A DNA stretch of 64,000 nucleotides from Nocardioides marmorisolisilvae (GTDB taxonomy: Bacteria > Actinomycetota > Actinomycetes > Propionibacteriales > Nocardioidaceae): positions 1,054,001-1,118,000 of the forward strand of contig NZ_CP134227.1 in NCBI RefSeq assembly GCF_031656915.1, read 5' to 3'. The translations under genes were made by a program, and so were the position numbers. The first letter of the stretch is position 1. Each line of letters begins with the position of its first letter. The notes beneath the pieces were generated by a model. The model did not search any database and was not told where the DNA came from. It worked only from the letters and a program-made list of their open reading frames with translations. Below are positions 33,175 to 56,472 of this stretch, piece after piece.

Positions 33175-33180
33175 GGCGGC

Positions 33181-35302: not shown

Positions 35303-36981
35303 GAGGTGGCCACCCCCGGGTTGGCCAGCGACTCGGCCTTGTACGCCTCGAGGTCGAACCCGTGCCGCGCCAGCTCCTGGGCGAGGAAGTTGTCGAGCTT
35401 GCCGGTCGCGACGGCCTGGCCGAGCTGGTTGGGCGCGAAGATCGGGGTGGTGGCGTATCCCCTGGCGGCGTCGATGCTGGGCTGGACGACCAGGACCTCC
35501 TCGACCCAGCGCTGCTTGCGGGAGGTGCCGTCGGGGTTGGGGATGACCTCCGAGCGCAGGTACATCACGATGTCGATCGCGGCGGCGAGCTTGCTGATGG
35601 CCAGCTCGCGGGTGACCTGGGGGCCCTTCTCCATGGCGCAGGAGACGAGCTTCTCGATGGTGTGCTCGGCGCTGCGGGCGTGGGTGGTGCTGATCGAGCC
35701 CGGGCCGGACTCCATGGCCTTAAGCATGTTCCAGACCTCGGGGCCGCGGACCTCGCCGACGATCTGGCGGGCGAGGTTGAACCGGAAGGAGTGGTGGATG
35801 GCCTCCTCGAGGCTGAACTCACCGGCCTGGCGTCCGTCGATGCCGACCTCGCCGGATCCGGGGCGGTGTTCCCAGGCGTGGACGATCTTGTGCCGGTCGA
35901 CGAGCTCGTGCAGGTGCAGCTCGAACTCGGTCTCGAAGGTGCCGATCATCTCCCAGGGCGGGATGCACGAAGCCAGGGCGCGGACCCAGGTGGTCTTCCC
36001 GCTGCCTTGGACCCCGGAGACGACGATGCTCTTGCCGGCGCGCACGCAGGCGGCGGCGAAGTCGGCCAGGACCGGGCTACAGGCCTTGCGGTCGTAGACC
36101 ATCTCGTCCATCGACACCTCGCGCATGCCGTGGCGCCGGATCACGACCGAGGTGTAGGCCATCACCCAGGAGCCGGCCGCGAGCCGCGCTCCCCCGGGCA
36201 GCCGGAGGTCCAGATGCGGCCGGGCCTCGGTGAAGGGCCGGTTCTGCCGGGCGCCGAGGTCGGAGAGGAACTCGCGCAGCTCGTCCTCGGAGTCGGCGAT
36301 CGGGGCGGCCTCGACCAGGGTGCCGTCGACCAGCTCCAGCCACACCGAACAGGCCGGGCCGCGGGCGATGACGATGATGTTCTCGACGTCCTCGCGCTCG
36401 ACCAGCGGCTGCAGGCGGCCGAGGCCGAACAGGGCGGCACGGAGGGCGGACTTGAGCGCCTTCTCCTGACCGGTCGTCCACGGCGGCCGACCGGTGGAGA
36501 CCAGCGTCTCGGCCTCGGACTTGATGAGCTCCTCGATGACGTCGAGGCCCATCTGCTCGCGGTCTTCCTCGGTGACCCGGCCACCTTCCTTGTCGAGCCG
36601 GGCGGTCAGTCGCGACGAGATCTCCGCGCGGTACTGCGCGATCAGCTCCCAGTCCAACTCGACCTCGCCATCCGCACCGTGGATGTGATGGTGCTCCTCC
36701 GGTGTGGGCGCCACCAGCGGGCGCAAGCTGCACTCCGAGCGGGCGCGGCCGGGCAGCTGACCCTCGCCTTCGCTGGTCCAGGCGCCGGCGAAGATCGGCA
36801 GAGAGGTCGGGTCGTGGTCCTCGACGACCGGCGGCGGAGGCGGCGGGGAGCCGTTGGTGCCGCGGCCGCGGGCGAACGGCGAGGTCTGCTCACGGTTCGC
36901 GGCGTGACGGGCCTCGAGCCACTCATCGGCGCGCAGCGGGTCACGGCCGTTGGTTTCCGGGTGGTGTCCGTTGGTGCTCAT
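35299..36981 (-). CDS. tadA: TadA/CpaF-family pilus assembly ATPase
   Basis: This 560-residue protein has a disordered N-terminus (1-105), a helical N-domain, and the secretion-ATPase core: Walker A GVQGSGKT at 323-330, an Asp-box region with IGTFETEFELHLHELVDRHK, then FRFNLARQIVGEVRGPEVWN (Walker B region) and STTHARSAEHTIEKL (His box). It should be a hexameric ATPase driving pilus assembly with TadB and TadC. The start at 36,981 overlaps the tadZ-like gene by ATGA; a much longer open frame upstream is a shadow. Confidence 0.9.
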   Translation of the reverse strand: MSTNGHHPETNGRDPLRADEWLEARHAANREQTSPFARGRGTNGSPPPPPPVVEDHDPTSLPIFAGAWTSEGEGQLPGRARSECSLRPLVAPTPEEHHHIHGADGEVELDWELIAQYRAEISSRLTARLDKEGGRVTEEDREQMGLDVIEELIKSEAETLVSTGRPPWTTGQEKALKSALRAALFGLGRLQPLVEREDVENIIVIARGPACSVWLELVDGTLVEAAPIADSEDELREFLSDLGARQNRPFTEARPHLDLRLPGGARLAAGSWVMAYTSVVIRRHGMREVSMDEMVYDRKACSPVLADFAAACVRAGKSIVVSGVQGSGKTTWVRALASCIPPWEMIGTFETEFELHLHELVDRHKIVHAWEHRPGSGEVGIDGRQAGEFSLEEAIHHSFRFNLARQIVGEVRGPEVWNMLKAMESGPGSISTTHARSAEHTIEKLVSCAMEKGPQVTRELAISKLAAAIDIVMYLRSEVIPNPDGTSRKQRWVEEVLVVQPSIDAARGYATTPIFAPNQLGQAVATGKLDNFLAQELARHGFDLEAYKAESLANPGVATS

Positions 36982-37817
36982 GCGTGGCCTCCGTTCGTGG
37001 GAGCGAGGGCGGCCTGGTTGGCGCCGAGGATGGACTGGATCGCCGCGGCGCTGGCCCGGTAGCCGCGCAGCAGCCCGGAGGACTCGAACTTGCGGGGCTT
37101 GCGGGCGCCGTGGGAGTAGACCTCGGCCACCTCGGGCTCCCAGTCCACGGAGGCGACCACGGGGATCTGCAGGGCCTTGGCGATGTGGCGGGCGGTGTAT
37201 GGCCGGACGCGGGCTCCGGTGGGAACCGTGGGCCACCGGCGCTCCTCGTCGACGAGGAGGACCCCGAGACGAGACAGGCCACCGACCGCACCGAACTGGT
37301 CGCGCAGCGACTTGGCCCACGAGCGTGCACCGGCCAGTGCCGGCAGTGAGCTGCGGGTGACCAGCAGGGTCAGGTCGGAGGCAGCGATGAGCGGCTGCGG
37401 CCAGCCCGCGAGACCGAGCCGCCCGGAGTCGACGATGACGTCCTGAACGTTGCGGTCCAGCGCGCGCAGCTGCTCGGCGAGCGGCTCCCACAACGGCAGC
37501 AGGCTAGGGGCCTGCTCGTGGGCCCGGATGCCGGGCAGGAACCAGGCCGAGCGCTCGGCCGGGACCTCGGGGTCCAGCAACAGCGTCTCGCGAGGAAGGG
37601 CGGCAGCCAGTGTCCCCTCGCGCAGCGCGAGGGCGAGGTTGATCAGCCCGCCGGTGGGTTCCTGGGTGCCGTGGAAGTAGCCGGCGAAGACCGAGGAGGA
37701 ACCGGTCGGGTCGGCGTCGACCAGGAGCACGGGACGGTGCCAGTCGAGGGTGAGCCCCAGCGCCGTGGTGGAGACACCGGGCGAACCGCTGGCGGAGGCC
37801 AGGACGATCAGCGCCAT
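36978..37817 (-). CDS. TadZ/CpaE-like localisation ATPase
   Basis: This 279-residue ParA-superfamily protein has a P-loop-like SASGSPGVSTTALGLT (residues 7-22), a VDADPTG segment near 35, and a C-terminal LGANQAAL tail. The P-loop lacks the canonical signature Lys, as in TadZ/CpaE proteins that position the pilus machine. It follows the SAF-domain gene by 3 bases and overlaps tadA by ATGA. It resembles the degenerate ATPase of the T4SS operon (15,066-15,914) in design. Confidence 0.82.
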   Translation of the reverse strand: MALIVLASASGSPGVSTTALGLTLDWHRPVLLVDADPTGSSSVFAGYFHGTQEPTGGLINLALALREGTLAAALPRETLLLDPEVPAERSAWFLPGIRAHEQAPSLLPLWEPLAEQLRALDRNVQDVIVDSGRLGLAGWPQPLIAASDLTLLVTRSSLPALAGARSWAKSLRDQFGAVGGLSRLGVLLVDEERRWPTVPTGARVRPYTARHIAKALQIPVVASVDWEPEVAEVYSHGARKPRKFESSGLLRGYRASAAAIQSILGANQAALAPTNGGHA

Positions 37818-37820
37818 CGC

Positions 37821-38501
37821 TCAGCGCTCCCGAGCGTCCAGGACCAGTGCGACCCGCCCGGTAGCGGCCCGGGCAGCCAGGTCGGCCGCATCGCCCTCAG
37901 GGACAGAGACGTCGACAACGGTCTCCCCCGTCTCCTCGACCCGGCTAACACCAACGACGGTGGCCTCGATGCTGACCGGCTCCTTGTCGGTGATCTCGCC
38001 CTGGTCGCCGGGCGTGGTGACGATACTGACGACGTCGCCGCCGTAGAGCGGCTCCGAGGGCATCTGGGCGGGAGTGAGACTGATGCCCACCAGGGACTCC
38101 CCCTCCCCCGGCACCAGGTTGTCCGCGACTGCCTGCTCGGTGAGCAGGGTGCCGGCCCACAGGTCGACGGCGGCGCGGCTGCCCTCGAGCTCCGCCTTCT
38201 GGCTGCCGGGAACCGGCGTCAACGCCGGGTCGACACTGACCCGCACGACGGCGAGGTCACCGGCCTCGATGGTCTCGCCGCGCTTGACGTCGCTCCTGAC
38301 GACCAAGACCTCTCGGGTGTCATTAACAGACGTGAACGCGTAGCCGGTACCTAGCGCACCAGCAGCGACCAAGCCCGCGCAGAGTGCAAACACCCACCGC
38401 CTGGGGCGTTGTCTGACGGGCGGGAAGTGGTTGATGTGGGGCGTGGTCGGGATATTGGAGGGTGCCTCGCCCGACCGTTCCTGAGTGATGTTCATCGACA
38501 T
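37821..38501 (-). CDS. SAF-domain protein, CpaB/RcpC-like
   Basis: This 226-residue protein has a cytoplasmic basic N-terminus, one membrane helix (about 34-55), and a SAF domain (about 62-130, VLVVRSDVKRGETIEAGDL). A second beta region with GGDVVSIVTTPGDQG follows. CpaB/RcpC proteins act in the periplasm or outside in Tad pilus biogenesis and probably bind peptidoglycan or glycans. ATG 38501 is chosen: a GAGAGGA site lies about 10 bases upstream, while the earlier in-frame GTG (38531) lies inside shared site C. Confidence 0.8.
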   Translation of the reverse strand: MSMNITQERSGEAPSNIPTTPHINHFPPVRQRPRRWVFALCAGLVAAGALGTGYAFTSVNDTREVLVVRSDVKRGETIEAGDLAVVRVSVDPALTPVPGSQKAELEGSRAAVDLWAGTLLTEQAVADNLVPGEGESLVGISLTPAQMPSEPLYGGDVVSIVTTPGDQGEITDKEPVSIEATVVGVSRVEETGETVVDVSVPEGDAADLAARAATGRVALVLDARER

Positions 38502-38562: not shown

Positions 38563-38614
38563 CGCCAACCCAACTCGACAAGACGACACTAGTGCATTTC
38601 TATCGAGCGAGTGG

Positions 38615-38784
38615 TTATCCGCAGGTGACCAACTCCGAGATGTCATCGCCCGAGTCCTGACCGGAAGCGGTTGCGCGGCCCAGTCCCCCGATGGGACCGA
38701 TCAATTTCGCGCACCGAATGTCCGGATCTATGGGACCACAAAATCATCCGGTTCTCCCGGGGAGAACCTGTTCCTTGTGGATAA
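38615..38784. promoter_or_regulatory. DnaA boxes upstream of the Tad operon
   Basis: The 320 bases between the Tad operon start and the XRE gene contain TGTGGATAA at 38,776-38,784 (a perfect DnaA box, inverse orientation) and TTATCCGCA at 38,615-38,623 (one mismatch). Apart from site C and these boxes I see no gene here. They could be targets for the DnaA-domain protein of this element (45,156) or for chromosomal DnaA. Confidence 0.5.
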
Positions 38785-38822: not shown

Positions 38823-39269
38823 CTAGATCTCCTCGCGCTGCAGGCGTTGGCGTTGTGCCTCGAAGAAGGCGGCGACGACGACATCAACGGGGTGCCCCGA
38901 GGCACCGGCGAGTTTGTCGAGTTGCCTGGCCGCAGGGAGCCGAGCCCAGCGGCCTTGCTCCCAGGCGTAGTAGGTAGGCACAGCAACGTTCACGGCCGCC
39001 GCCAGCTTGGGGACTGTCAGTCCGGCCTGCAGACGCAGCGCCCTGAGGTCGGGGATCTCACCGTCAATGTGGATGAGACGAAGGGTCGGGATGTCCAGGG
39101 CTCTTGCGAGCTTGACCAGGAAATCCGGCCGGGGAACGGACGTGCCGAGCTCCCAGCGCGAGACGCGCTCCCCGCCGGCAGCACCAACGAGACGCGCCAG
39201 CTCGTGCTGGGTCAGGCCCGCCTTCTCGCGTGCTGCCCGCAACTCCGAGGGGTCGACTCCGGTAACCAT
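38823..39269 (-). CDS. Double helix-turn-helix XRE regulator
   Basis: This 148-residue protein contains two Cro/CI-type domains: residues about 8-65 (LRAAREKAGLTQHELARLVG) and about 73-130 (LRALRLQAGLTVPKLAAAVN). The second has TYYAWEQGRW at the recognition region. Two tandem HTH domains in one chain would suit binding to two-block DNA sites such as the shared motif. It lies at the head of the pilus operon, same strand, 292 bases upstream of site C. A partial motif (GTGATCGT only) lies just upstream of its own start, at 39,297-39,304. It is the best local candidate for the shared regulator, by inference. Confidence 0.82.
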   Translation of the reverse strand: MVTGVDPSELRAAREKAGLTQHELARLVGAAGGERVSRWELGTSVPRPDFLVKLARALDIPTLRLIHIDGEIPDLRALRLQAGLTVPKLAAAVNVAVPTYYAWEQGRWARLPAARQLDKLAGASGHPVDVVVAAFFEAQRQRLQREEI

Positions 39270-41888: not shown

Positions 41889-41900
41889 AAGGTGGCGCTG

Positions 41901-43241
41901 GTGGATCAGAGCCCGTACACGCCCGGTGCTGGGCACAACCCGCCCGTCCTGGCAGGACGCGACGGCCTTCTCCGTGACTGGCACTTGATGCTCAACGACA
42001 TTGTCGCTGGCGGCCGCGTCCGTGCCCAGGACATGATCCTTGCTGGCCCGCGCGGCGTGGGGAAGACCGTCACGGTGAGCGCGTTCGCGGACCTTGGCAA
42101 GGAGCAAGGCTTCGAGGTGGTCAACCTCCAGGCTGTGTCGGGCCACGCTGGTCTTGTAGAGGCGCTGCTCCAGCGCGCTCGCACCCGTATGGCGGAGGAG
42201 GCCGGCCCCTGGCAGCGCGCCCGCAAGGCCTTCGAGCGGATCGGTGGGGTCAACCTCAGCATCGCGGGCATCGGTGCCGGGATCTCTACCCGCCAATCCG
42301 ACGCCGCAGCACCGGGCCTGGACGCGGGAACGCTCGCTGACGCCCTGGCCACGCTGGCGGCCGAGGTCCGCAAGGACGCCCACAGCGGCGGCCTGCTGAT
42401 CACCGTCGATGAACTCCAGGTCGCCTCTGGGCCCGACCTCGCCCTGCTCGCGGCGACGCTGCACCGACTCAACGTCGACCACCCCTCCGCACCGGTCCTC
42501 TTCGCCGGCACCGGACTGCCCTTCACCCCCGATGCACTCCGCAAGGCCGGCGTGACCCACCCAGACCGCCTCTTCGTGCTGGAGCCCATCCCGCTGACGC
42601 TCGAACCCGATGACGCCCGATACGCCGTGGTGGAGCCAGCACGCCGGGCCGGTGTCGCGTGGACCCCCGAGGCGGCTGCAGCCGTGGTCGAGGCCAGCAA
42701 CGGCTACCCGGCCCACCTGCAGCTGTTCGCCCACGCCATCTGGACATCCGCGCCTGGGCCCGACCAGATCACCCTCGGCGACGTCGAAGCCGCACTCCCC
42801 CAGGTCGCCGACATGCTCGAACGCCGCACGCTTGGTCCCCGCTGGGACCGCATCAGCGATCGCCAGATGGAGTTCCTTGCCGCCCTCGCTCTGCACGGCG
42901 GGCGCGCCTCGACAGCGGCGATCGCCAAGACTCTCGGTCGCTCCCAGCAAGAGCTGTCCTGGCTCCGCGAGGAGCTCATCGAGGAGGGCGACGTCTACGC
43001 ACCCAAACGCGGCCAGCTGGCGATGGCGGTTCCGCTCTTTAACCACTTCGTTCTGAGCCACTACGAACGCACGCGGCCCGAGGCAGCGACCGAACTGCTG
43101 AGCCTGCAGAAGATGATCGCGAACGCCGGGCTGGATCCGTCAGCAGCCCACGCGGATCGGGACATGCTGCGCCGAAGCAAGCAGAACGAGACCCGCCAGT
43201 TGCCACCGCCCAGCGGCGAATCTGGGCGGCCGCGCTCCTGA
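41901..43241 (+). CDS. AAA ATPase with C-terminal winged helix (ORC/Cdc6-like layout)
   Basis: This 446-residue protein has a P-loop (GPRGVGKT near residue 50), Walker B in GGLLITVDELQVASG (about 165-178) and sensor-type LFAGTGLPF. A C-terminal winged-helix region contains RQMEFLAALALHGGRASTAA and SQQELSWLREELIEEGDVYA. This ORC/Cdc6- or MalT-like layout occurs in many ATPases of mobile elements; the exact role is unknown. GTG 41901 is preferred over GTG 41892 because AGGAAGG is correctly spaced only from 41901. It lies behind the CTAG palindrome, a likely self-control site. Confidence 0.78.
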   Translation: MDQSPYTPGAGHNPPVLAGRDGLLRDWHLMLNDIVAGGRVRAQDMILAGPRGVGKTVTVSAFADLGKEQGFEVVNLQAVSGHAGLVEALLQRARTRMAEEAGPWQRARKAFERIGGVNLSIAGIGAGISTRQSDAAAPGLDAGTLADALATLAAEVRKDAHSGGLLITVDELQVASGPDLALLAATLHRLNVDHPSAPVLFAGTGLPFTPDALRKAGVTHPDRLFVLEPIPLTLEPDDARYAVVEPARRAGVAWTPEAAAAVVEASNGYPAHLQLFAHAIWTSAPGPDQITLGDVEAALPQVADMLERRTLGPRWDRISDRQMEFLAALALHGGRASTAAIAKTLGRSQQELSWLREELIEEGDVYAPKRGQLAMAVPLFNHFVLSHYERTRPEAATELLSLQKMIANAGLDPSAAHADRDMLRRSKQNETRQLPPPSGESGRPRS

Positions 43242-43754: not shown

Positions 43755-44162
43755 GTGGACGACAACGACCAGCTCGAAGCAGGCGGACACGCGTCGGCGG
43801 CCCGCGAGCACGTCTACGGCTTCAACCGCGCCACGATGTGGGAGCAGGACCAGATCCCGGCTGAGACCTCCGCCCAGCTTGCGGAGTTCGCCGAGATCGC
43901 GGCCGCACTCCCCCAGGCGTTATCGCAGCTTTCCAGCACGCTCGAGCAGGCTCTGGCTCACCAGGTGCTCAGCATGGATGCGATGACCGACGAGTCGGAC
44001 CCGGCGATGGCGATCGGCGTCGCTCGCCTCCATCTAGAGGAGGCCCGCGGTCTCGCGGTCCACCTGCACAAGCACCTCAACGCCGCGCGCAACGCCACCG
44101 CGCACGTCATCAGCCAGGGCGCCGACGACGGCCAGGAGTCGATGCCCTGGGACCAGCCCTGA
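43755..44162 (+). CDS. Unknown helical protein, 135 residues
   Basis: The start is GTG 43755 behind GGAGGGAAGGG. The protein is mostly long helices (AQLAEFAEIAAALPQALSQL, LEQALAHQVLSMDAMTDESD, HLEEARGLAVHLHKHLNAAR), suggesting a helical bundle or coiled coil. It resembles the 237-residue helical protein at 44,434 in style and may be its paralogue. A DnaA-like box (TTGTCCACA) lies about 80 bases upstream. Confidence 0.65.
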   Translation: MDDNDQLEAGGHASAAREHVYGFNRATMWEQDQIPAETSAQLAEFAEIAAALPQALSQLSSTLEQALAHQVLSMDAMTDESDPAMAIGVARLHLEEARGLAVHLHKHLNAARNATAHVISQGADDGQESMPWDQP

Positions 44163-44274: not shown

Positions 44275-44427
44275 GTGAGCACGCCCACCGATTCCCCGTC
44301 CGCGGCCGACCGTGACCCGGTCCAGGACGTCCGCGCACACCTCGAGCAGGCCCTGGCTGCGCTCGATCAACTCCGCGAGGTCCTGCCCCCTCCCACCGCT
44401 CCGCCCGCCCGAAACCAGAGGCGGTGA
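44275..44427 (+). CDS. Small helical protein, 50 residues
   Basis: Starts at GTG 44275 with AAGGAG about seven bases upstream, reads VSTPTDSPSAADRDPVQDVR, then one amphipathic helix (HLEQALAALDQLREVL) and a Pro-rich tail. It is the first gene after site D and ends six bases before the next gene. No family recognised. Confidence 0.6.
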   Translation: MSTPTDSPSAADRDPVQDVRAHLEQALAALDQLREVLPPPTAPPARNQRR

Positions 44428-44433
44428 GTCGGC

Positions 44434-45147
44434 ATGACCACCGACACCACACTGAGCGCCGCCGACGCCGTGTTCGAGGCCGAGCAGGCCGTGGGCAGGG
44501 CCCGATGGGTGGTGGAGGAGCTGAAGGAGACGATCGGCTCCGCGCTCCGCGTGCTCAACGACGCCGAACTCAACTCGGCCAAGGCCAAGCTGTCCGAGCG
44601 CGGTTCCTTCTACCTCGAGGCCGCCGGCGAGCACCTAGGACGGCTGCGCACGAGGTGCAACGAGATGCCTGACCTGACGCACGACCTGTTCGTACACCTC
44701 AATCGCGCGTCGCAGTCGGTCACCGACGCCCGTGCCCTCCTCGACCCGGCCGACACCTCCGATCCCGTCATCGCCAGCGAGGTCGCCCAACTCAAGCCGC
44801 ACCTCGCGGTCGTCGGCGAGATGGTCGCCCTGGCCAAGCCCTTCGCCCAGCTGGCTGCCCAGCACGTCGAGACGGCACACCAGGCCAGCCAGGACGTGAC
44901 TGCCATGGGGCTGCTGGAGCCGGTCAGCCTGGAGCGGAGCATCGCGACCGCCGGCAAGGAGCTCGGCCGCGCCGACGAGGACGTGCGCCTGCTCGGCAAC
45001 GTCGTCGACCACGCCGCGGCCAGCGCCCGTGAGTCGGCCGGGATCGCCAGCGAGATCACCGACAACGCTCGCCGGCGGATGTCCGAGCAGGCCCGTGACC
45101 CGATCCCGAGCCCCACCCTGCCGGGTCCCAGGACCCCGGGTCGGTAG
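44434..45147 (+). CDS. Coiled-coil/helical-bundle protein of accessory operon D
   Basis: This 237-residue protein is almost entirely helical, with heptad-like stretches (AVFEAEQAVGRARWVVEELK, DLFVHLNRASQSVTDARALL, LGNVVDHAAASARESAGIAS) and a basic Pro-rich tail. There is no membrane segment. It lies between the 50-residue gene and the DnaA-domain protein in one operon (7- and 8-base gaps). I do not recognise the family. A structural or DNA-associated role is possible. Confidence 0.7.
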   Translation: MTTDTTLSAADAVFEAEQAVGRARWVVEELKETIGSALRVLNDAELNSAKAKLSERGSFYLEAAGEHLGRLRTRCNEMPDLTHDLFVHLNRASQSVTDARALLDPADTSDPVIASEVAQLKPHLAVVGEMVALAKPFAQLAAQHVETAHQASQDVTAMGLLEPVSLERSIATAGKELGRADEDVRLLGNVVDHAAASARESAGIASEITDNARRRMSEQARDPIPSPTLPGPRTPGR

Positions 45148-45155: not shown

Positions 45156-46079
45156 ATGGATCTCGACCCGGGCGGCCGCCAGCTGGCGGGCCTCATCCTC
45201 GACGCGGCTGGCCGAGGCGAACATGACCAGGTCGCCAGCCTGATTGCACCGCTCGATGCAGAGCGGCTGCGCTCGCTGGTGACGGTGCTGGCCGTCCAGG
45301 TCGACCAGAGCGCGCCGGCCTCCTCGGCAACCGGCCCGGCCGCGGTGTGCGAGCTGGCCATCAACGCCGCGGCGCCGATGTTCGGCACGACGCCGGAGGC
45401 GATTCTTAGCGCCGAACGCCGCCGACCAGTCAGCGATGCGCGGGCGGTGGCCATGACGGCCGCCCGCGAGACCGGCCTGTCCCTGCCAGCGATCGCCGAG
45501 CAATTCAACAAGGACCACGGCTCGGTGATCCATGCGGTCCGCCGCACCGCCGAGCGGCCCCGACTGGCCGACGCCGCGGCGCGGGTGAGCGAGCACGTCA
45601 ACAGCCGCTACACCGCCCGTCTCCCCCGCACCGAAGAGAACGTGGTCGACCTCCCCCAGCGGCCGCCCGCCTCGACTTTCGAGCCCGATGGCCCGGTCGA
45701 ACACGCCGTGCTGGCGGCCGCGGAGGCCCTCAACACCACACCCGAGGTCCCCCTGGGTGCCGACCGGAGCCGGGCGGCCGCCGATGCCCGAGCGGTGGCC
45801 ATAACGGCCGCCCGGATCCACGGGCACAGCCTGCCCACGATCGCCCGGCACTTCGAGCGCGACCACACCACGGTGCTGCAAGCCACCCGCCGCATCGAGA
45901 AGACCCCGCCGCTTCGGGACCTGGCCGCCAAGATCGCCGCGGATCTCCCGAGCAGCGGGCCAGCGCCAGCGCCGGCCGGCTCGACGTCGACGATCCCGTG
46001 CCCGAGAGCGGCCACCGCTCCCTCGGGTTGCGCGAGCAGCAGCGGGCGATCCCCGTTGCTGGCGAGCGGCCGCAGCTGA
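45156..46079 (+). CDS. Tandem DnaA domain IV protein without ATPase domain
   Basis: This 307-residue protein contains two copies of the DnaA C-terminal box-binding domain. Copy 1 spans about 61-137 (ARAVAMTAARETGLSLPAIA, with KDHGSVIHAVRR at 119-130). Copy 2 spans about 180-250 (ARAVAITAARIHGHSLPTIA, with RDHTTVLQATRR at 235-246). RDHTT matches the DnaA residues that read the DnaA box. No AAA+ domain, P-loop or DnaB-interaction domain is present. The protein could bind two DnaA boxes as a regulator, initiation competitor or partition factor. It lies in operon D; perfect DnaA boxes occur at 38,776 and 56,511. Domain assignment is firm; function is inference. Confidence 0.85.
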   Translation: MDLDPGGRQLAGLILDAAGRGEHDQVASLIAPLDAERLRSLVTVLAVQVDQSAPASSATGPAAVCELAINAAAPMFGTTPEAILSAERRRPVSDARAVAMTAARETGLSLPAIAEQFNKDHGSVIHAVRRTAERPRLADAAARVSEHVNSRYTARLPRTEENVVDLPQRPPASTFEPDGPVEHAVLAAAEALNTTPEVPLGADRSRAAADARAVAITAARIHGHSLPTIARHFERDHTTVLQATRRIEKTPPLRDLAAKIAADLPSSGPAPAPAGSTSTIPCPRAATAPSGCASSSGRSPLLASGRS

Positions 46080-46089
46080 GGGTGGCCCG

Positions 46090-46299
46090 GTGAAGGCCCT
46101 GATCGGGCTGGCCGCGGCCGCGGTCCTCGCGCTCAGCGCCGGCGGGATCAAGGCCGCGATCCCCGGAGTCCAGTCAGGCCCCGAGTCCGCTGAGGGCAAG
46201 ACCAGCCAGGTGCGCGTGACCGCGGTCGTCGACGGCGACACGATCCGCGTCGAGACGCTAGGAGGCCGCCAGCTCGGCCGAGTTCGGCTGCTCGGCATC
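46090..46299 (+). pseudogene. SNase-like nuclease gene, 5' half
   Basis: A GTG start at 46090, 10 bases after the DnaA-domain gene, opens a signal anchor (about 2-25) and the first part of a staphylococcal-nuclease (thermonuclease) domain: VRVTAVVDGDTIRVE and GRVRLLGI. The reading frame is cut after the ATC codon at 46,297-46,299 by the 7.9-kb mobile element and ends three codons later. The remaining domain is found in frame from 54,249. Together they would make a 174-residue secreted or anchored nuclease-like protein. Confidence 0.8.
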
Positions 46300-46546
46300 A
46301 TTCATTAGTCAAGTCTGGTGTCGGGATTGGACCTGTCGTGCCCCGTGGCAGCGGAACCTGTCGTAGTCGGCACCCGTGGAAACACCGGAACGGAAGGTCC
46401 CGGTACGAGATCGACTTGCCGCCGTGGGTATGTCAGAGGAGGCCCCCGTCCCGGTGACGGAGCCCGGACGGCTCCTACGGGACGTCCGCCGGGTGGTCGG
46501 GCCAGGATGGGCTTCTAGCCTGGGCGTTCACCGTTTGTGGTTCCCG

Positions 46547-47005
46547 TTACGACGCAGTTCGTTGATCTCGTGCATCGGCGGCAGAGGTAGCGGCGGGGTC
46601 CCAGAGCCCTTCGGCCGTGTCGGTGGCCACGTGTTCTTCGTACACGGCGACCTTCCACGTGATCAGGTCCAAGCACTCGGTGAGTGCGTCCAGTTGTGCC
46701 TGCACCCGCGCTTGGTGAGACCGGAGCAGATCGAGGCGCTGGTGCTCGTTGCCGGGACCTTGGCGAACGAGGTCGGCGAACGTCTGCAGGCTGGCCAGCG
46801 GCATGCCCGAGGCGCGCAGCTTGGTGCAGATGGTCAACCAGTCGACGTCGGTCTGCGTGTAGATGCGCCGCCCACCGGACGTGCGCTGCACCGGCGAGAC
46901 CATCAGGTTCTCGCGTTCGTAGAACCGCAGGGCGTGCACGCTCAGGCCTGTGCGGGCGGCGACGCCGCCGATACTGAAACTGTCACTGTCGTGGATCGCT
47001 GGCAT
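46547..47005 (-). CDS. MerR-family regulator
   Basis: This 152-residue protein has the MerR N-terminal winged HTH (SIGGVAARTGLSVHALRFYE, residues ~11-30; GGRRIYTQTDVDWL near 44-57) and a long coiled-coil dimerisation helix (HQARVQAQLDALTECLDLIT). It lacks the conserved Cys cluster of metal sensors, so it is closer to MerR regulators of oxidoreductase genes. It is divergent from the SDR gene with a 53-base gap containing a 19-base-spacer promoter. Confidence 0.88.
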   Translation of the reverse strand: MPAIHDSDSFSIGGVAARTGLSVHALRFYERENLMVSPVQRTSGGRRIYTQTDVDWLTICTKLRASGMPLASLQTFADLVRQGPGNEHQRLDLLRSHQARVQAQLDALTECLDLITWKVAVYEEHVATDTAEGLWDPAATSAADARDQRTAS

Positions 47006-47021
47006 GGTGTCACGGTAGCCC

Positions 47022-47052
47022 TTGACCTAGACCACGCTCTAACTCCTAGCGT
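47022..47052 (+). promoter_or_regulatory. MerR-type promoter of the SDR gene
   Basis: TTGACC (47022-47027) and TAGCGT (47047-47052) are separated by 19 bases, the long spacer typical of MerR-activated promoters. The spacer contains a short dyad (CTAGA / TCTAA). The start codon at 47,059 is only six bases beyond the -10 box, so the message may be leaderless. Confidence 0.65.
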
Positions 47053-47058
47053 GTTGGT

Positions 47059-48030
47059 ATGACAACTCCGCAGCAACCGATCGGATCAGGCTTCGGCTTC
47101 CGCAGCACCACCAATGATGTCCTATCCGGTATCAGTCTCACCGGCAAGACCGCCGTGGTGACCGGCGGCTACTCCGGCCTCGGACTAGAGACCACCCAAG
47201 CGCTGAGCGCGGCCGGCGCGCAGGTGATCGTTCCGGCCCGCAGACCTGACGTGGCGCGCGCCGAGCTGGCCGCCGTACCCGGGGTCAGGGTCGAGCCGAT
47301 GGACCTGGCCGATCTGGACAGCATCTACCGTCTGGCAGACGCACTGCTGGCTATCGGCCGATCGATCGACTTTCTCATCGGGGCCGGTGGGGTGATGGCA
47401 AGCCCGGAGACCCGCGTTGGCCCTGGCTGGGAGGGCCAGTTCGCGATCAACCACCTCGGCCACTTCGCGTTGACCAACGAGTTGTGGCCAGCGCTGGTCG
47501 CAGGCCGGGCGCGCGTCATCTCCTATTCCTCGGCAGGTCATCACCTGTCGGGCATCCGCTGGGACGACGTGCAGTTCGACACCGGCTACGACAAGTGGCT
47601 GGCCTACGGGCAGTCCAAGACCGCGAATGCGCTATTTGCCGTGCACCTCGACGCCCTTGGTCGGGAGCACGGCGTGCGGGCGTTCTCGCTGCATCCGGGA
47701 TCGATCCTGACCCCGTTGCAACGCCACATGAGCCACGACGAGCTGACCGACCGCGGCTGGGTCGACGCCGCCGGCAACCCCGCGGACCCAACTTTCAAGA
47801 CCCTGGCGCAAGGCGCCGCGACAGGCGTATGGGCAGCGACCTCACCTGGGCTGTCCGGACTCGGCGGGGTGTACTGCGAGGACTGCGACATCGCCACCAT
47901 CGCCGACCCGGTCGGGCCGATGGACTCCGGCGGAGTCCGCGACTATGCCATCGACCCCGGTCAAGCTGCCCGACTCTGGCGGCTGTCCTCCGAGCTCACC
48001 GGACTCGACACCGTCCCAACAACCGCGTGA
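47059..48030 (+). CDS. Short-chain dehydrogenase/reductase
   Basis: This 323-residue protein is a classical SDR: cofactor motif TGGYSGLG near 34-41, the NNAG-equivalent IGAGGV near 111, catalytic Ser in ISYSSAGHH (about 155) and the YxxxK motif YGQSK (about 178-182). It is similar to oxidoreductases of the retinol-dehydrogenase/WWOX-like group that act on unknown aldehydes or ketones. Controlled by the divergent MerR regulator. It is cargo of the 7.9-kb element and may give protection against a reactive compound; that is inference. Confidence 0.88.
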   Translation: MTTPQQPIGSGFGFRSTTNDVLSGISLTGKTAVVTGGYSGLGLETTQALSAAGAQVIVPARRPDVARAELAAVPGVRVEPMDLADLDSIYRLADALLAIGRSIDFLIGAGGVMASPETRVGPGWEGQFAINHLGHFALTNELWPALVAGRARVISYSSAGHHLSGIRWDDVQFDTGYDKWLAYGQSKTANALFAVHLDALGREHGVRAFSLHPGSILTPLQRHMSHDELTDRGWVDAAGNPADPTFKTLAQGAATGVWAATSPGLSGLGGVYCEDCDIATIADPVGPMDSGGVRDYAIDPGQAARLWRLSSELTGLDTVPTTA

Positions 48031-48229
48031 CAGCGCTCATCCATCGCCGGCCCAAGATGTGCCGCTGGCCGATCGCTTTCCGGGACGCAGCCCACACATT
48101 CGGCTCGGGTGGTTGGAGCCGGTGGGCTGCCTGGCCCTGTCTGCCCGTTCGGCGCGCTGATCCAGCGGGTGCACCGCGACCTGCATGGCACAGCCGGTCG
48201 CGGGGCGAATCCCCTCAGGGTCTAGCGCG

Positions 48230-48652
48230 CTAGGCCGACGAATGCGCGCCGATATGTGGTACCTGTCGGAGCGAGGCGAGTTCTTCGCGTGCTTGGTGGA
48301 GTTCGAGGGACAGTTCGCCGACGATCTTGGTCAGCGTCTTGGTGGTCTCGCGTTCTTCGGCGAGCTGCGTGTTGAGAGCATCGTTTTCGTTCTTGAGCGC
48401 GCGGTTCTCGTCGGCGATTCGTGTGGTCGAGTTGGGCGTGGCGTGCTGGGCTTTGACGCGGGCCTTGAAGTCGTCGACGAGGTTCTTGTGGTCGCCGTAG
48501 ACGACGTCACGTCGTAGCCCGGACTCGGTGATCAGCTGTGTGCTGGTGAGTTTGCCGGTGGTCGACCTCAGCGGGGTGCCGGCCAGGAGTCGTTCCGCGG
48601 CGGCGGCCAGGTCGCGGCGCTCGGCATCGAGGTCGCGTCGCCTGCGGGTCAT
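48230..48652 (-). CDS. DUF6262-type accessory protein of the recombinase trio
   Basis: This 140-residue protein has a basic N-terminal helix-turn-helix-like region (KLTSTQLITESGLRRDVVYG) and a coiled coil (ADENRALKNENDALNTQLAE). It matches DUF6262, the TnpC-like partner found after recombinase trios. It overlaps the preceding recombinase by ATGA. TnpC of Tn554 affects orientation and efficiency of transposition; the same role is plausible here. Confidence 0.8.
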   Translation of the reverse strand: MTRRRRDLDAERRDLAAAAERLLAGTPLRSTTGKLTSTQLITESGLRRDVVYGDHKNLVDDFKARVKAQHATPNSTTRIADENRALKNENDALNTQLAEERETTKTLTKIVGELSLELHQAREELASLRQVPHIGAHSSA

Positions 48653-50772
48653 CGTGTGCGTCCTTCTTTGGGCGGTGTCTGGTGTCGTGTGAGGACGCCG
48701 CGGATCTGCTCGGCTTGGGCGCGTGCGCGGTCGCGCAGCGGGGCCGGCGCCATCGGCTCGTCGGCGGCATCATTGAGGACGTTGAGGCGTTCGCGCAGGC
48801 GAGTGATGTCGCGGTCGGTGTAGGCCAGGTTGACGCACCCGGCCTGGCATTCCGCCTCGAGCGGGCCGTCGACGATCGGCAGCCCTTGGGCTTGTCGGCT
48901 GGTGCGGCAGGCGGCGGTCTCGGCCCGGTATACGCAGGTCATCCCGTCGCCGTGGTGGATGCTGCGGTCGGCGTGTTGCAGGATGCGTTCGACGTTGCGG
49001 ACGCGGTTGACGACCCGCCCGGCGAACCTGTGGGTGGATGCGACTCGGTCGCGATAGTGGGTGGCGGCGGGGCCGCTGACGTGTTCGCCGCCGGCCAACA
49101 AGGCGTGGTCGTGCTGGTTGTGCTCAATGATGGCCTCCAGGCGTTCGACGGCCAGGTCGTCGAGCCATCCGGTGTCGGCCTTGCCGCTGTAGCTGAGGGT
49201 GACGGTGGTGGACACGTGCCCGTATTGCAGTGCCGCGGCGATCAGGCCGCGGGGGCGGCGCACGATGAAGTAGGCCAGGGTGCGCCGAAACCGGGTCGGG
49301 TAGATCCGACCGGCCGGATCAGGGGGGATTGCGGCGTGGCCGTCGAGCCGGTGGAAGCTGGCGTTGACCCAGGCGATGAAGTTTTCCAGGTCGCGGGTCA
49401 CTTCGCCGTTTCGGCGGGCGTGCCGCTCGGCGGGCCGGATCGCGTGCGGCTTGTGGAGGCTGGACGGGAACAGGAAGGGTGCGTCGGTCAGCTGCTCGAG
49501 CAGGGTGATGGCCTGGTGGACGGGGCGCACCACGACCCAGGTGCGTTTCCAGGGATCGTCACCGAGGGTGGGGCGTGGGGTGCGGGCCGGCCCCTTGCCG
49601 TAGCGGCCGGCTACCAGTAGCTGACCGGTCGTCTCGTCCTGGCAGGTGCAGCCGCGGCGTAGGTTGAGGACCTCGCCGGGTCGCATGCCCGACAGGTAGC
49701 TGATGACGACGAAGCAGGCCGCGGACAGGTGAGAGATCAGGGCGGGGAGTTCTTGTGTCGTCAGGGGCCGTTCGCGCCACGGGCGGCCGTCAATGAGTCC
49801 GGTGATGGTGCCCACGGGTGAGCCATCGGCGACATGTAGGCCGCTGTCGAGGATGACGGGTTGCAGGCTGGGCGGTACTTGACGCTGGGGCAGGCGCAGC
49901 ATCCTGGCGAGGTGGCTCCAGTTGATCCGTGGTTGCGCCTGCGGGTTACTGCTGGGGTGTCCGGGCAGGGCGCGGTCCTGCGCGGATGCGTCGGCGGCGA
50001 AGGCTTCGAGTCGTTGCCGGGAGGACAACCCGTCCAGGGTCACCTGGCTGGGGTGGGTGCCGGCCTCGAGCTGGTCCAGCTCGGCGCGCGCTGCCACGAT
50101 GTCGGGGCCGATCACCTCGACCATGCGCAGACTCCAGTCCAGTAGGGCCTCCATGGTGGCCGGGGCGACGCGTGGGGTCGTGTTCTCCGCGCCCGCCGGT
50201 CGGCAGGGCGCATTTGCCAGCCGGGATGGGGGCGCACCGCCCCAGGGGTTGTGGGTGTCCAGTCGGCAGTGCGGCGGAAGGCGCGCTCGGTACTCCCAGA
50301 CGGTGCGGACCGCGACGAATAGGTCGCGCTTGCGGCGGTTGCTGGTCTCCAGCCGGAGCACGTGCTGGCGGTAGCGTTCCAGCTGCTGGTCGGTGACCTC
50401 GTGCAGGCTGGGCAGTTGTTGCTGGCTCATCCAGGCCGCGAACACGCGCAGCGTGCACAGCCGGAATGCCAGGGTGCCGATGCTCATCAGGTCCCCGTCG
50501 CTGGTGAGGGTGACGCTGCGCGGAGTGGGGTGTTCCAGGAAGGCCAGGGTGACGTTCTTGAACACTTCGACCAGCTCGGTGGGCCAGCGGTCCCATTGGA
50601 TCGCGTTGATCTTGGCGTGCGCGTCGGGATGGGCGGGGGCCAGGTGCCAGACTGCGTCCTCGAAGCGGGACAGCTTGCCCGGCGGGGTGCCGGGACGCAC
50701 GGTGCGGTGGCGCAGGATCGGTGCCCCGACACGGTTCCGGTCGCCCTCGTCGCTGATCAGTGCAGGTCCCAT
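48649..50772 (-). CDS. Tyrosine recombinase, third of the trio
   Basis: This 707-residue protein starts at ATG 50772, overlapping the previous gene by 16 bases. The catalytic domain has SGMRPGEVLNLRRG (Arg I), RIYPTRFRRTLAYFIVRRPR (helix with box II-like Arg), LQYGHVSTTVTLSYSG (His and the probable nucleophile Tyr). A Cys-rich C-terminal segment (TCVYRAETAACRTSRQAQGL and CQAGCVNLAYTD) is typical of TnpB-like members. Much of the first 350 residues is an unrecognised N-terminal domain. Confidence 0.85.
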   Translation of the reverse strand: MGPALISDEGDRNRVGAPILRHRTVRPGTPPGKLSRFEDAVWHLAPAHPDAHAKINAIQWDRWPTELVEVFKNVTLAFLEHPTPRSVTLTSDGDLMSIGTLAFRLCTLRVFAAWMSQQQLPSLHEVTDQQLERYRQHVLRLETSNRRKRDLFVAVRTVWEYRARLPPHCRLDTHNPWGGAPPSRLANAPCRPAGAENTTPRVAPATMEALLDWSLRMVEVIGPDIVAARAELDQLEAGTHPSQVTLDGLSSRQRLEAFAADASAQDRALPGHPSSNPQAQPRINWSHLARMLRLPQRQVPPSLQPVILDSGLHVADGSPVGTITGLIDGRPWRERPLTTQELPALISHLSAACFVVISYLSGMRPGEVLNLRRGCTCQDETTGQLLVAGRYGKGPARTPRPTLGDDPWKRTWVVVRPVHQAITLLEQLTDAPFLFPSSLHKPHAIRPAERHARRNGEVTRDLENFIAWVNASFHRLDGHAAIPPDPAGRIYPTRFRRTLAYFIVRRPRGLIAAALQYGHVSTTVTLSYSGKADTGWLDDLAVERLEAIIEHNQHDHALLAGGEHVSGPAATHYRDRVASTHRFAGRVVNRVRNVERILQHADRSIHHGDGMTCVYRAETAACRTSRQAQGLPIVDGPLEAECQAGCVNLAYTDRDITRLRERLNVLNDAADEPMAPAPLRDRARAQAEQIRGVLTRHQTPPKEGRTR

Positions 50773-52610
50773 TGGCCCTCCAGGAGGTCGCTGATGCGTT
50801 GGCGGTGCCCGTCGGTGATCCTGGCCCTGGCGTGGTCGATTTCGGCGGGCTGGAAGCCGGCGGTGATGTCGCGCAGCTGGCCCAGGCGGGGTGCGTACCG
50901 GCGCGCCCACAGGGCCGGGGGCAGGTGTGGACGCATCTGCTCCAGTGCGTCGATCGCGGCCAGCTGGATCGGTAGCTGGTGCGGCAGAGCGCGGGCGTTG
51001 GCGCAGTCCAGGCAGGCCAGGAACGACGCCGAGCAGGCGGCCCCGGGCGGGTCGTACGGGCTGGCCCGGTGGTCTTGGCAGGACGCCAGAACGGTGTCCC
51101 GACCGCCCTCGATCAGCCCGGCCAACTGCCTCATGCTCATGTCGGCCTGGCTGGCGGCGGCCTGTGGGTCGCGTCGGGCGAGGTCTAGGAAGTTCTGGGT
51201 GAAGACCGGCACCCGAGCATGGTCGCGGGCCTTGCTCACCTCGTCGTCCAGGGCGGCAGCGACGACGGCGTGGGACTCGGCCTGGACGGTGGGGTGGGGC
51301 ATCAGGTAGGTATCGCGCATGGTGGTCGCGGTGTGCGCCACGGGGCGACGGCGCCGCTCGATCGCGGTCAGCCGCAGCGTCCTCACCGAGACCACCGGCT
51401 TCCCGGCAGGGACCGCGAGGGTGGCGGTGGGGAAGCTGCGGGCGGCGGCCCACCGCTGCACATGCTGGCTGGTCAGCGTGGTGATCCACGGGCTTGGAGT
51501 ATGAACGGTCTTCTTGGCGATCCGGCCGGTGAAGAGTCCCTGGCTGTTGCTCAGGCGGCGGGCGGTGTCGCCGAGGTCGAGCAGCATCCGGTACACCCTC
51601 AGTGGCGACCGGGACCACCGGTGTTCTCTGTCGCCGCCGGTGATGAGGTCTTCCAGCGCGATGACCATGTGTTCCCGGTCGGGTCCGCGGCGTGGCTTGC
51701 ACGCCTCGACCAGTGCCAGGCCCTCGTCGGTCAGCCCGCCGTCGGGACGGAAGTGCGCGGCCGGCCAGGTGACGATCGTGCCGTAGTTCTGCCCGGTCAA
51801 CGCGACAAGGAGCAGCGCGAACGCGGCCAGTTCGTCCGGGGACGGGCACAGCATGCCGGCGACCTTGACCAGTCCGCCGCACCGTTGCACGTCCGGCGTG
51901 CCGTTCGTGTCGACCCTGCGGGGCAGTTGGCCGGTGCGTTCGAAGCCATCCAACAACCGACCGAGTGTGACGTCCTCGCTGCCCGCTGGAAGCTCTCCGG
52001 CCCGATACCGGACCAGGAGCCGCCGCGCGGCGTGGATCCGGTCCCGGGCCGCCCGCACGTCATGTCGAACGGCGGTCAAGATCTCCTGCCATTCGGCCTC
52101 GGTGTAGCCCCGCTTGCTGATGTCGCCCCGGCCCATCCCGCGTACCCGGATCGCCGCCAACCCGGCCCTCGCCTGGGGGCTGAGACGCTCGTCGTCGCGC
52201 AGCAAACGTCGCAGGTTCTCGACGTAGCCGCTCACGGTTCGTGGTTTCAGGTGCTCGTAGCGGCGCCGGAAGGCCAGCAAGTGCTCGGCGACGACGTCTT
52301 CTGGCTGCCGGACCGGGACCGGGTGCTCGGACAGCACGACCGCGAAATGGCGGGCCGTGTCCACCAGTGACCTGGCGGTGGGCAATCGTTTCACCGTCGA
52401 ACGGGTGGTGACCTGGCGGGCGACCCGGCCGGCCAGCCACCGGCGGATCGGCTCGGCCACCGGCAGGTCGGTGAACTCGAACAGCGTGCTGCGCCCACTG
52501 GTCTCGTCGAGGAACAGCACACTTTGACCATCGGCTCCCAGTCGTGGCCGCGGCGCCCACCCGGCCGGTGGCAGGGCTGCGGGTTGTCCTCCCCCCACGC
52601 GGTCGCTCAC
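50757..52610 (-). CDS. Tyrosine recombinase, second of the trio
   Basis: This 617-residue protein begins with GTG in a GTGA overlap with the first recombinase. It has a SAM-like N-terminal domain (about 90-165) and a divergent catalytic region with LLVALTGQNYGTIVTWPAAH and VSVRTLRLTAIERRRRPVAH. The usual first Arg is not clear, so it may be a non-catalytic or divergent subunit. A Cys-containing C-terminal region has GAACSASFLACLDCANARAL. Confidence 0.8.
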   Translation of the reverse strand: MSDRVGGGQPAALPPAGWAPRPRLGADGQSVLFLDETSGRSTLFEFTDLPVAEPIRRWLAGRVARQVTTRSTVKRLPTARSLVDTARHFAVVLSEHPVPVRQPEDVVAEHLLAFRRRYEHLKPRTVSGYVENLRRLLRDDERLSPQARAGLAAIRVRGMGRGDISKRGYTEAEWQEILTAVRHDVRAARDRIHAARRLLVRYRAGELPAGSEDVTLGRLLDGFERTGQLPRRVDTNGTPDVQRCGGLVKVAGMLCPSPDELAAFALLLVALTGQNYGTIVTWPAAHFRPDGGLTDEGLALVEACKPRRGPDREHMVIALEDLITGGDREHRWSRSPLRVYRMLLDLGDTARRLSNSQGLFTGRIAKKTVHTPSPWITTLTSQHVQRWAAARSFPTATLAVPAGKPVVSVRTLRLTAIERRRRPVAHTATTMRDTYLMPHPTVQAESHAVVAAALDDEVSKARDHARVPVFTQNFLDLARRDPQAAASQADMSMRQLAGLIEGGRDTVLASCQDHRASPYDPPGAACSASFLACLDCANARALPHQLPIQLAAIDALEQMRPHLPPALWARRYAPRLGQLRDITAGFQPAEIDHARARITDGHRQRISDLLEGQWDLH

Positions 52611-54181
52611 CGAGACACCACCCCGGTGAGGGTGATCGGCTGCACCGTGCGCCCGCCTTCGCGGGCAAGGGTACGCAGCAACGCATCGACTCCGGCGGTC
52701 TCCCCCTCGTCCAACAGGGCCATCAAGTAGTCGACCTCAAGCCCGGCGAATGGTTCGAGGTAGATGTCTCGCGTGGTCATCGGGTGGGCGTGGCCCATCA
52801 GCGTGGCCAGCTGGTACCAGATGTCACCCAGCTGGTCGCGCAGGTCACGCGTCTCCTCCTCGGACAGGCCCGTGACCCGGGTCCGCCAGACCGCCGAGAA
52901 GATCGAGTACCACTTGAGGCAGAACGAGTGCCGCAGCATGTGCGGCCGCGCCCACAACGGGCACTGGTCCGCGTCCACCCCGTCACCGACGGTCTCGGCC
53001 CACACGCGGGCGATGCGGTGATTGGCGTGATCGAAGGTGTCTTCCCACCCGTAGGGCTTCTTCGGCAACCCATTCGGGGCGAGCCACAGCCACAACGGCG
53101 CCAGCCCGTCCGGGGTGCGTCGGAACAAACGGCGTCGCTCGTCCGGGCCGAGCACGTCCACCGAGACGGGCACCGGCCCGCCCGGGTCCTCGATCAGCAG
53201 CCGCTGACTGTGCGCGCGGTAGCCGGTCACGACCCGGACGCCGGGCAACTGCTGGTAGCGGCCGGCCCGCTGTGCCCGTCGGACGACCTCAGCCCGGGAG
53301 CCCGCCACCGGGTCGGTGTAGGCGGCTACCGCGTGCAGCACGCTTCGCGGGATCCGATACGTCCGGCCGGCCTTGGCGCCCTTGAGACATGCCGCCGACA
53401 GGTGCGCCGGCGCGAACCGGGCCGCGCCCGGTGCGGGGATCTCGAGGTCGAGGACGCTGGCCCACTCCGCCAACCGCAGGCCCGTCCCGTACAGGCCATC
53501 GACGAACGCCGCATCCCGGTCCTCATTGATGCCGCGCCAGCCAGGGCGGCGCAGCCCGTCGAAGCCGTAGCCACACAGCCCGATGTTGCGCCACTGCTCG
53601 AACGCCGACCGCAGCATCCACTTGACCTGCCGCCGCGTTGAGCCAGCGGGCCGCAAGGGATCCCGGCCACCCGGTCGGCGGCGCAGCGCCTCTTCGGGCG
53701 GCGCAACGCTGCGTCGCGGGCCCATGCCGGCGGTAGCGACCGGATTGGCCACGCCGTACCGCTGGCCGGCCCACGAATAGAAGCTGTTCAATGCCGACCG
53801 GTCCGTGTCGAAGCTCGTCGGCTGCACCCGCTTGGCATTGTCCAGCGACGTCAGCCGCCACTCCTTGAATGCTCCCACGTCTCTCGCCGTCGCGTCCGTC
53901 CAGCCGCGGCCGACCACGTGTAGGTAGTCCAGCCACACCACCAGGGCGTAGGCGTACCGGCGCCACGTTCCGGGGCGGGCCTCGGCCATCGGCCCGGTGC
54001 GGAAGAACAGATTGACCCGCGGGTCAGGCCACCCGCCCGGGCCGATCAACACCGGGGTCCCGTGCCGGGCACCATTGGCAGCAGCGCGGGCGTGCACCTC
54101 CCCGAAACCCGACAAACACTCAGCGTCAGGCGTGGTCACGGACGCCGTGAAGTCGTAGAACGTCACCGTCCACCCTTCCAT
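52607..54181 (-). CDS. Tyrosine recombinase, first of the trio
   Basis: This 524-residue protein starts at ATG 54181 in preference to a TTG at 54193. It has an N-terminal SAM-like domain, first Arg in LYGTGLRLAEWASVLDLEI, box II WARPHMLRHSFCLKWYSIFS, TLMGHAHPMTTRDIYLEP with His and the catalytic Tyr. All key residues are visible, so it is the likeliest strand-exchange enzyme of the trio. Its start lies about 67 bases inside the right end of the element. Confidence 0.87.
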   Translation of the reverse strand: MEGWTVTFYDFTASVTTPDAECLSGFGEVHARAAANGARHGTPVLIGPGGWPDPRVNLFFRTGPMAEARPGTWRRYAYALVVWLDYLHVVGRGWTDATARDVGAFKEWRLTSLDNAKRVQPTSFDTDRSALNSFYSWAGQRYGVANPVATAGMGPRRSVAPPEEALRRRPGGRDPLRPAGSTRRQVKWMLRSAFEQWRNIGLCGYGFDGLRRPGWRGINEDRDAAFVDGLYGTGLRLAEWASVLDLEIPAPGAARFAPAHLSAACLKGAKAGRTYRIPRSVLHAVAAYTDPVAGSRAEVVRRAQRAGRYQQLPGVRVVTGYRAHSQRLLIEDPGGPVPVSVDVLGPDERRRLFRRTPDGLAPLWLWLAPNGLPKKPYGWEDTFDHANHRIARVWAETVGDGVDADQCPLWARPHMLRHSFCLKWYSIFSAVWRTRVTGLSEEETRDLRDQLGDIWYQLATLMGHAHPMTTRDIYLEPFAGLEVDYLMALLDEGETAGVDALLRTLAREGGRTVQPITLTGVVSR

Positions 54182-54248
54182 CCCAGCAGACAAACGCTCT
54201 CTCCAAGCAGGTCGTGACCGACGACTCTGAATAGCCTAGAGAAGGATC

Positions 54249-54563
54249 GACGCTCCCGAAGTCGCTCATCCGCTGGAGCCGTCCGAGTGCTACGCCGCGG
54301 ACGCCACGCGCCTGCTCGAGCGACTCGCGCCGGTCGGCAGCACCGTCGACCTGGTCACCGACACCGCCCAGCCCAGCCGTGACCGCTACGACCGGCTGCT
54401 GCGCTACGTCGACCACGATGCCGTCGACGTAGCCCGCGAGCTCCTGGCCAGCGGCGCCGCCCGCCGCTACGAAGCAGACCAGGCGCTTGCCCGCGAGGAG
54501 TCGTACGCCGGCGCCGTCGACGACGCCCAGGGCGCTGAGCGCGGCCTGTGGGGAAGCTGCTGA
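54249..54563 (+). pseudogene. SNase-like nuclease gene, 3' half
   Basis: From 54,249 the frame reads DAPEVAHPLEPSECYAADAT, then DTAQPSRDRYDRLLRYVD, then VARELLASGAARRYEADQAL and ends RGLWGSC at 54,563. These are the conserved features of the second half of thermonuclease domains: ECY, the DRYxRxLxYV strand and the RGLW tail. There is no start codon, so the half is silent unless the mobile element excises or the gene is read through. Confidence 0.8.
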
Positions 54564-56384: not shown

Positions 56385-56435
56385 GACCCTCCTCCATCTG
56401 TCAGCACTAGTGCGAATCTCTTGACTTTATCCGTG

Positions 56436-56472
56436 GTGATCGTCCGGCGACCGCCATACGACATAGGCGAAC
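56436..56472 (+). promoter_or_regulatory. Shared transfer-regulon site F
   Basis: Plus-strand reading: GTGATCGT, 16 bases, GACATAGG, then CGAAC. Fourteen of 16 block positions match the consensus, identical spacing. It ends about 127 bases before GTG 56599, the longest leader of the set, and the leader contains a DnaA box. Confidence 0.7.

Follow-up and report, generated by a model that had tools for sequence, protein, structure and literature searches.

The closest described counterpart of the protein reported here is domain IV of bacterial DnaA (PF08299; 1J1V, 3PVP), whose base-contacting residues in E. coli are R399, P423 and positions 432-435 (PMC5043019) and for which the standard high-affinity box in Actinobacteria is TTGTCCACA (PMC4285127). 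The two are alike in fold, in their helix-turn-helix, in the equivalents of R399, P423 and RDHTTV found in the second domain copy of the present protein, and in having DnaA-box sites nearby. They differ in that the present protein, carried by a mobile element, lacks domains I-III and the ATPase, holds two or three domain copies per chain and has KDHGSV in copy 1; compared with the DnaA of its own host, its domains are two residues shorter around the helix-turn-helix.

Two plasmid proteins are also close, those of pTC1 (ABM10333.1) and pNOCA01 (WP_011751415.1), likewise conjugative, MobF plasmids. They share the N-terminal region and the domain with 47-48% identity over residues 26-152 but have a single copy, and their genes follow immediately on that for the T4 coupling protein and one conserved gene. 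A literature search returned no published function for these one-domain proteins. Outside DnaA, a C-terminal Bac_DnaA_C-like domain also occurs on mobile DNA in the TnpA-REP transposases of subclass 2.1.2, in which, however, it is fused to a HuH nuclease, is neither stand-alone nor tandem, and is associated with flanking repeats unlike DnaA boxes (PMC6006769). The NCBIfam families NF004686 and NF004688 (PRK06030, hypothetical protein) show weak similarity (26.4 and 19.5 bits), so far below their curated cut-offs of 148 and 136 bits that the present protein is not a member of either.

Database records already give the names "dnaA domain protein" or "helix-turn-helix domain-containing protein" to proteins that have this domain by itself. 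Within the open-access literature, to which the search was mostly confined rather than to subscription journals, there is no description of stand-alone or tandem DnaA domain IV plasmid proteins or of a box regulon. What appears to be new here, judged from sequence, is the set of conserved box regions, the tandem form and its candidate box regulon.

Two DnaA domain IV copies in one chain

The gene lies in a window of 64,000 nucleotides (the whole stretch of Nocardioides marmorisolisilvae DNA that was analysed) and comprises the following parts, numbered by window position.

45156-46079, + strand: gene of the DnaA-domain-IV-only protein, a 307-aa ORF as read in the window, with Pfam Bac_DnaA_C twice; relatives are 302-416 aa
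45168-45311, + strand: helical region at the N terminus (residues 5-52), family-wide and outside DnaA domain IV (structure model, family alignment)
45336-45620, + strand: domain IV copy 1, residues 61-155, KDHGSV (Pfam, model helices 61-155, residues)
45693-45944, + strand: domain IV copy 2, residues 180-263, RDHTTV, canonical contact residues (Pfam, model helices 180-263, residues)
45945-46093, + strand: C-terminal tail, in a different frame from that of all close relatives (family alignment, sequence)

The initial annotation had proposed two DnaA domain IV copies without an ATPase, and profile searches showed exactly this content. Bac_DnaA_C (PF08299) matched the 307-aa protein in two stretches with 95.9 bits (E 1.5e-27; Pfam cut-off 31.5 bits), and in the genome-wide search each copy alone exceeded the cut-off (55.8 bits for copy 1, 46.1 bits for copy 2), while the host's own DnaA, encoded elsewhere at G000:C1:2888175, scored 101.7 bits. 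Bac_DnaA_C was the winning family, the runner-up helix-turn-helix families being far weaker (HTH_38, 29.3 bits). No AAA+ family matched the protein in the Pfam and NCBIfam profile searches, and the DnaA initiator profile TIGR00362 reached 70.8 bits against a cut-off of 343.9, its best stretch covering profile positions 353-418 only.

An AF2 structure model built from an 18-row alignment consists of the N-terminal helical region, two confident helical domains at residues 61-155 and 180-263, and a disordered tail, with domain pLDDT of about 87-98 in most ten-residue blocks. In a Foldseek search against the PDB, the best matches were the M. tuberculosis DnaA DNA-binding domain on its box, 3pvp (TM 0.77-0.79 by target length, 2.0-2.1 Å), with E. 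coli domain IV on DNA, 1j1v, at rank 5.

Both recognition signatures named in the initial annotation are present in the translation. Copy 2 retains the equivalents of all contact residues (R399, P423 and RDHT), the same set as in host DnaA, whereas copy 1 keeps those of R399, P423, D433 and H434 and has K in place of R432 and G in place of T435. These differences are a property of the family: RDHTTV occurs in every intact copy 2, and copy 1 has KDHGSV throughout, apart from KNHGSV and KDHSSV in two cases.

In the window, the tail is shifted by one base after copy 2 (near 45,945; a mutation or a sequencing error) relative to all close relatives, which affects the last ~44 residues. The conserved tail ...REQQRA..QLRVAR is legible in another frame and ends at 46,093, where, as in relatives, 4 bases are shared with the start of the next gene (the 4-base overlap is seen in pA-N39). 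Both DNA-binding copies precede the frameshift; the window copy, frameshifted in a damaged element, may be inactive.

A conjugative element of Nocardioidaceae and its relatives

The home of the gene is a conjugative plasmid-type element of Nocardioidaceae, which here lies in a chromosome contig. It spans from about G000:C1:1034283 to about 1112400 (~78 kb) within a single 4.23-Mb contig, has a MobF relaxase homologue and SSB on its left flank, and shows no tRNA gene, as a possible attachment site, in 40 kb on either side of its ends. The window is blockwise collinear with plasmid pA-N39 over the T4SS genes (1691-17147), a LysM protein and Tad-pilus-like cluster (25110-38501), the cluster of the present gene, and the genes at 55512-58474. 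The neighbouring genes that concern us are listed below.

37821-38501, - strand: SAF-domain gene, first of the Tad-pilus-like cluster, behind boxes C (Pfam; counterpart annotated in pA-N39)
43755-44162, + strand: conserved gene, first of its cluster, behind box A; found in related elements, 87-98% identical in most
44275-44427, + strand: small conserved ORF, 50 aa (tblastn in relatives)
44434-45147, + strand: conserved 237-aa gene directly upstream of the domain IV gene, found in related elements; no Pfam family at a useful E
46090-46308, + strand: thermonuclease-family gene, 5' part; the rest is at 54288-54560, and the gene is annotated unsplit in pA-N39 and pCHL
55512-56384, - strand: conserved gene divergent from the 56599 gene across box B, found in related elements
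56599-56961, + strand: conserved 120-aa gene behind box B, found in related elements
56951-58474, + strand: conserved helical 507-aa protein behind box B (low-confidence model, pLDDT 54)

By Pfam, the Tad-pilus-like cluster contains ParA-like, CpaF/VirB11-like and two T2SSF proteins. The element is damaged: about 8 kb (46310-54287) interrupt the thermonuclease gene, about 5.7 kb (L060:3468-9188, G000:C1 about 1037468-1043188) divide a ParB-domain gene, and the domain IV gene is frameshifted. Within the 46310-54287 insert are genes for a MerR regulator and a short-chain dehydrogenase, together with large genes of which one has a phage-integrase SAM domain. A cassette of integrase, HTH and hypothetical genes at 29439-32660 recurs at other positions in pA-N39 (L038:26557-29865) and pTC1 (L037:2207-5440), and is a small mobile unit. 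Upstream of the domain IV cluster, 41892-43241 encodes an AAA_16 ATPase with a winged-helix region and a weak Orc1/Cdc6-like match (E 0.002); many related elements have, in the same place, an ATPase only about 30% identical.

Relatives with 77-94% identity along most of the chain were found in nine other genomes of a 198-genome family sample, as well as on plasmids of Pimelobacter and Nocardioides. When one genome of each species was scanned, ~25 multi-copy loci and about a dozen one-copy relatives emerged; the former all belong to Nocardioides, Pimelobacter or nearby MAGs, plus one Brachybacterium MAG, and plasmids pA-N39 and pCHL carry the multi-copy protein. Two copies are present in most loci, three in one 416-aa ORF of pA-N39 and in L090, and three with broken frames in L082 and L083. 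A phage origin was considered and dropped, there being no match in phage records or IMG/VR. The pCHL record (NZ_CP124682.1) begins inside the domain IV gene (L035:1-910), which is unannotated in its table; the starting point may reflect rotation of the assembly to a supposed dnaA. This plasmid family is also a vehicle for resistance genes, pCHL bearing cmx, sul1 and aadA2.

Copy 1 is 55% identical to the one-copy proteins, 48% to copy 2 and 42% to host DnaA, and copy 2 is likewise closer to copy 1 than to host DnaA (39%). Since the copies resemble each other more than they resemble host DnaA, an internal duplication of the domain fits. Both domains are under purifying selection, with dN/dS of the gene at 0.10-0.23 for pairs among Nocardioidaceae and 0.35 against Brachybacterium, and with values for the domains below that of the linker in most pairs.

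DnaA boxes before three gene clusters

With a perfect box defined as TTRTCCACA, four sites in the window come into question.

38615-38623, + strand: box C1, TTATCCGCA, one mismatch, 114 bp before the start of the SAF/pilus cluster; inverted partner of C2
38776-38784, - strand: box C2, TTATCCACA, inverted partner of C1
43668-43676, + strand: box A, TTGTCCACA, 87 bp before the 43755 gene start, in the cluster holding the gene of the protein
56511-56519, + strand: box B, TTATCCACA, 88 bp before the 56599 gene start, within the block GAGTTATCCACAG

The initial annotation had called the boxes at 56,511 and 38,776 perfect and that at 38,615 a near match, as the sequence bears out; its further near match at 43,668 is itself perfect, since TTGTCCACA is the standard actinobacterial box. 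Three perfect boxes in the window, all intergenic, compare with 0.25 expected, a number reached in 0 of 100 shuffles, while no perfect box marks the T4SS genes of the window as targets. One-mismatch boxes number seven against 8.05 expected and were dropped as evidence; with that count at chance, the argument depends on the perfect boxes and on how well they are conserved. The host genome holds 25 perfect boxes in total, of which four fall in the ~78-kb element against 0.46 expected (Poisson P 0.001 for four, or 0.012 for three, one of the four being at an insertion edge). That one, at L060:9177, was set aside as a fourth target, lying as it does at the edge of the apparent insertion that splits the ParB-domain gene. 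TTATCCACA occurs four times in the host genome, twice inside the element, and in the whole 111-kb pA-N39 two of three perfect boxes are those at sites A and B.

Across related elements, the boxes recur at the same positions. Of 23 related loci, 22 have a perfect box at site B, 87-128 bp ahead of the 56,599 gene, and the remaining one has a single mismatch; the 22 include the Brachybacterium element, where resemblance across this intergenic region as a whole is only ~50%. Five divergent rows (the window, L041, L047, L078 and L091, the last about 50% alike overall) share just two identical runs of at least 6 bases in the 217-column B intergenic region, AGACCAGT and GAGTTATCCACAG, and the block of box B is the longest fully identical run. 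The AGACCAGT block, located within 56385-56598, is the same in all five and stands 36-37 bp before box B.

Conservation of the other two regions is less complete. At site A, in a single orientation and 86-116 bp upstream of the gene, the box is perfect in 11 of 21 loci, has one mismatch in four and is absent from six, three of which have only a partial match to the 43755 gene. The inverted pair C, 158-162 bp apart before the pilus cluster, is found in the window and in the G094, G112, G106 and G160 elements, and is incomplete or weak in several others. Among one-copy relatives, no perfect box lies within up to 10 kb on either side of the gene, bar one in pTC1 ~4.2 kb off.

The form of box B is distinctive. 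Site B reads TTATCCACA in 28 of 29 rows and TTACCCACA in the other, with A at position 3 in all 29, whereas 21 of the 22 perfect boxes in 13 dnaA regions of the same family are TTGTCCACA, with G at that position (Fisher P 3e-13, a figure overstated by the relatedness of the rows). Box B is therefore not simply following the host's own box. A minor-groove cause for TTA versus TTG was ruled out, as host DnaA and the element domains alike have R at the 399 position.

Candidate role and ligand of the boxes

The protein is, on balance, probably an element-encoded transcription regulator acting on DnaA-box-type operators. We regard transcription control as its most likely role on the ground that the same three clusters, among them the one with the gene itself, have conserved boxes ahead of them at distances typical of promoters. 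Of the roles put forward in the initial annotation, regulation of genes next to DnaA boxes is thus the best supported, the boxes being kept in the same three intergenic regions across the family; we infer, as the remaining step, that the element protein and not only host DnaA is their ligand and that its binding alters transcription. Its other suggestions, that the protein blocks or recruits host DnaA or counts copies of the element, are conceivable but less well supported, host DnaA probably being able to bind these boxes too.

Such a regulator would combine duplicated domain IV modules with a small helical domain at the N terminus and a tail that is flexible yet conserved, would lack any ATPase, and would have its putative operators about 88 bp before the start codons of its own and the 56,599 clusters and as the inverted pair before the pilus cluster. 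The element would in this way set the expression of three clusters and the level of the protein itself. Two or three modules would allow tight or bridging binding, copy 1 perhaps reading a relaxed or different site. The suggestion that the protein is a bivalent binder holds in part: the conserved inverted pair before 38,501 agrees with it, but the other two regions have a single strong box and copy 1 has lost two of the four recognition-helix residues.

Among the alternatives, the one that survives best, although we consider it unlikely, is that the boxes are bound chiefly by host DnaA, which ties element genes to the host cell cycle, the element protein competing for the same boxes and tuning or insulating that input. 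The boxes fit the DnaA consensus, host DnaA shares the recognition residues, and site A is often TTGTCCACA, the actinobacterial box (PMC4285127); host DnaA can probably bind these sites, and conservation of the boxes could come from host DnaA instead, which also recognises these 9-mers. This reading sits poorly, however, with a box B of the TTA form in nearly every row beside oriC-region boxes of the TTG form. The TTA form at site B, the canonical copy 2 and the case of pINDO-MA30-4 all point to the element protein as a ligand. That plasmid encodes a 32% homologue of the 56,951 protein, and its counterparts of the 56,599 cluster are distant ones. Over the 29 kb that were read, this single case showed neither a relative of the domain IV protein nor a box before that cluster.

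Somewhat less probable again is a plasmid replication factor that marks or loads at an origin, of which region B (56385-56598) or another box would be part. Region B is highly conserved and is among the lowest-GC stretches of pA-N39, which supports this weakly, the GO terms of the family (electronic) are those of DNA replication initiation, and no obvious Rep was recognised. Against it, region B is 63% GC with one box, box B stands between divergent genes at a promoter-like distance, the boxes are spread over three separate regions, and the protein has no ATPase and is kept in elements within chromosome-size contigs. Nor does GC skew turn sharply at region B, and a replicon reading from the skew was dropped for want of a clear turn. 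Finally, action on the host, by occupying or titrating oriC boxes and so delaying host replication, is very improbable: copy 2 could bind the two perfect boxes between dnaA and dnaN in the host oriC region, but this leaves the conserved element boxes unexplained, and site B differs at position 3 from the oriC form TTGTCCACA.

Returning to the transcription regulator, these patterns suggest that the domain IV tip may have been turned into a plasmid gene regulator. A more far-reaching version, which we put forward tentatively as possible rather than probable, is that the tip was cut off, multiplied within one chain into two or three copies whose recognition helices differ, and put to use by a family of conjugative elements as a multivalent regulator of their own. 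In this version TTATCCACA at one site would be kept distinct from the TTGTCCACA of oriC, and control would run parallel to, or compete with, that of host DnaA. If this is true, the box-reading part of DnaA can exist as a stand-alone regulator without the ATPase switch. The three conserved upstream regions offer concrete targets, the natural series of one, two and three modules lets one ask how module number bears on box recognition, and the question is raised whether mobile elements evade, imitate or read out the control exerted by host DnaA.

Regions B and C have a further motif in common, the palindrome GCACTAGTGC/T, at 56404-56413 and 38586-38595 and in the same places in most related elements, whose count in the window is at chance level when one mismatch is allowed. 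It may be bound by a different regulator of the element, for instance the product of the HTH gene at 38832-39269.
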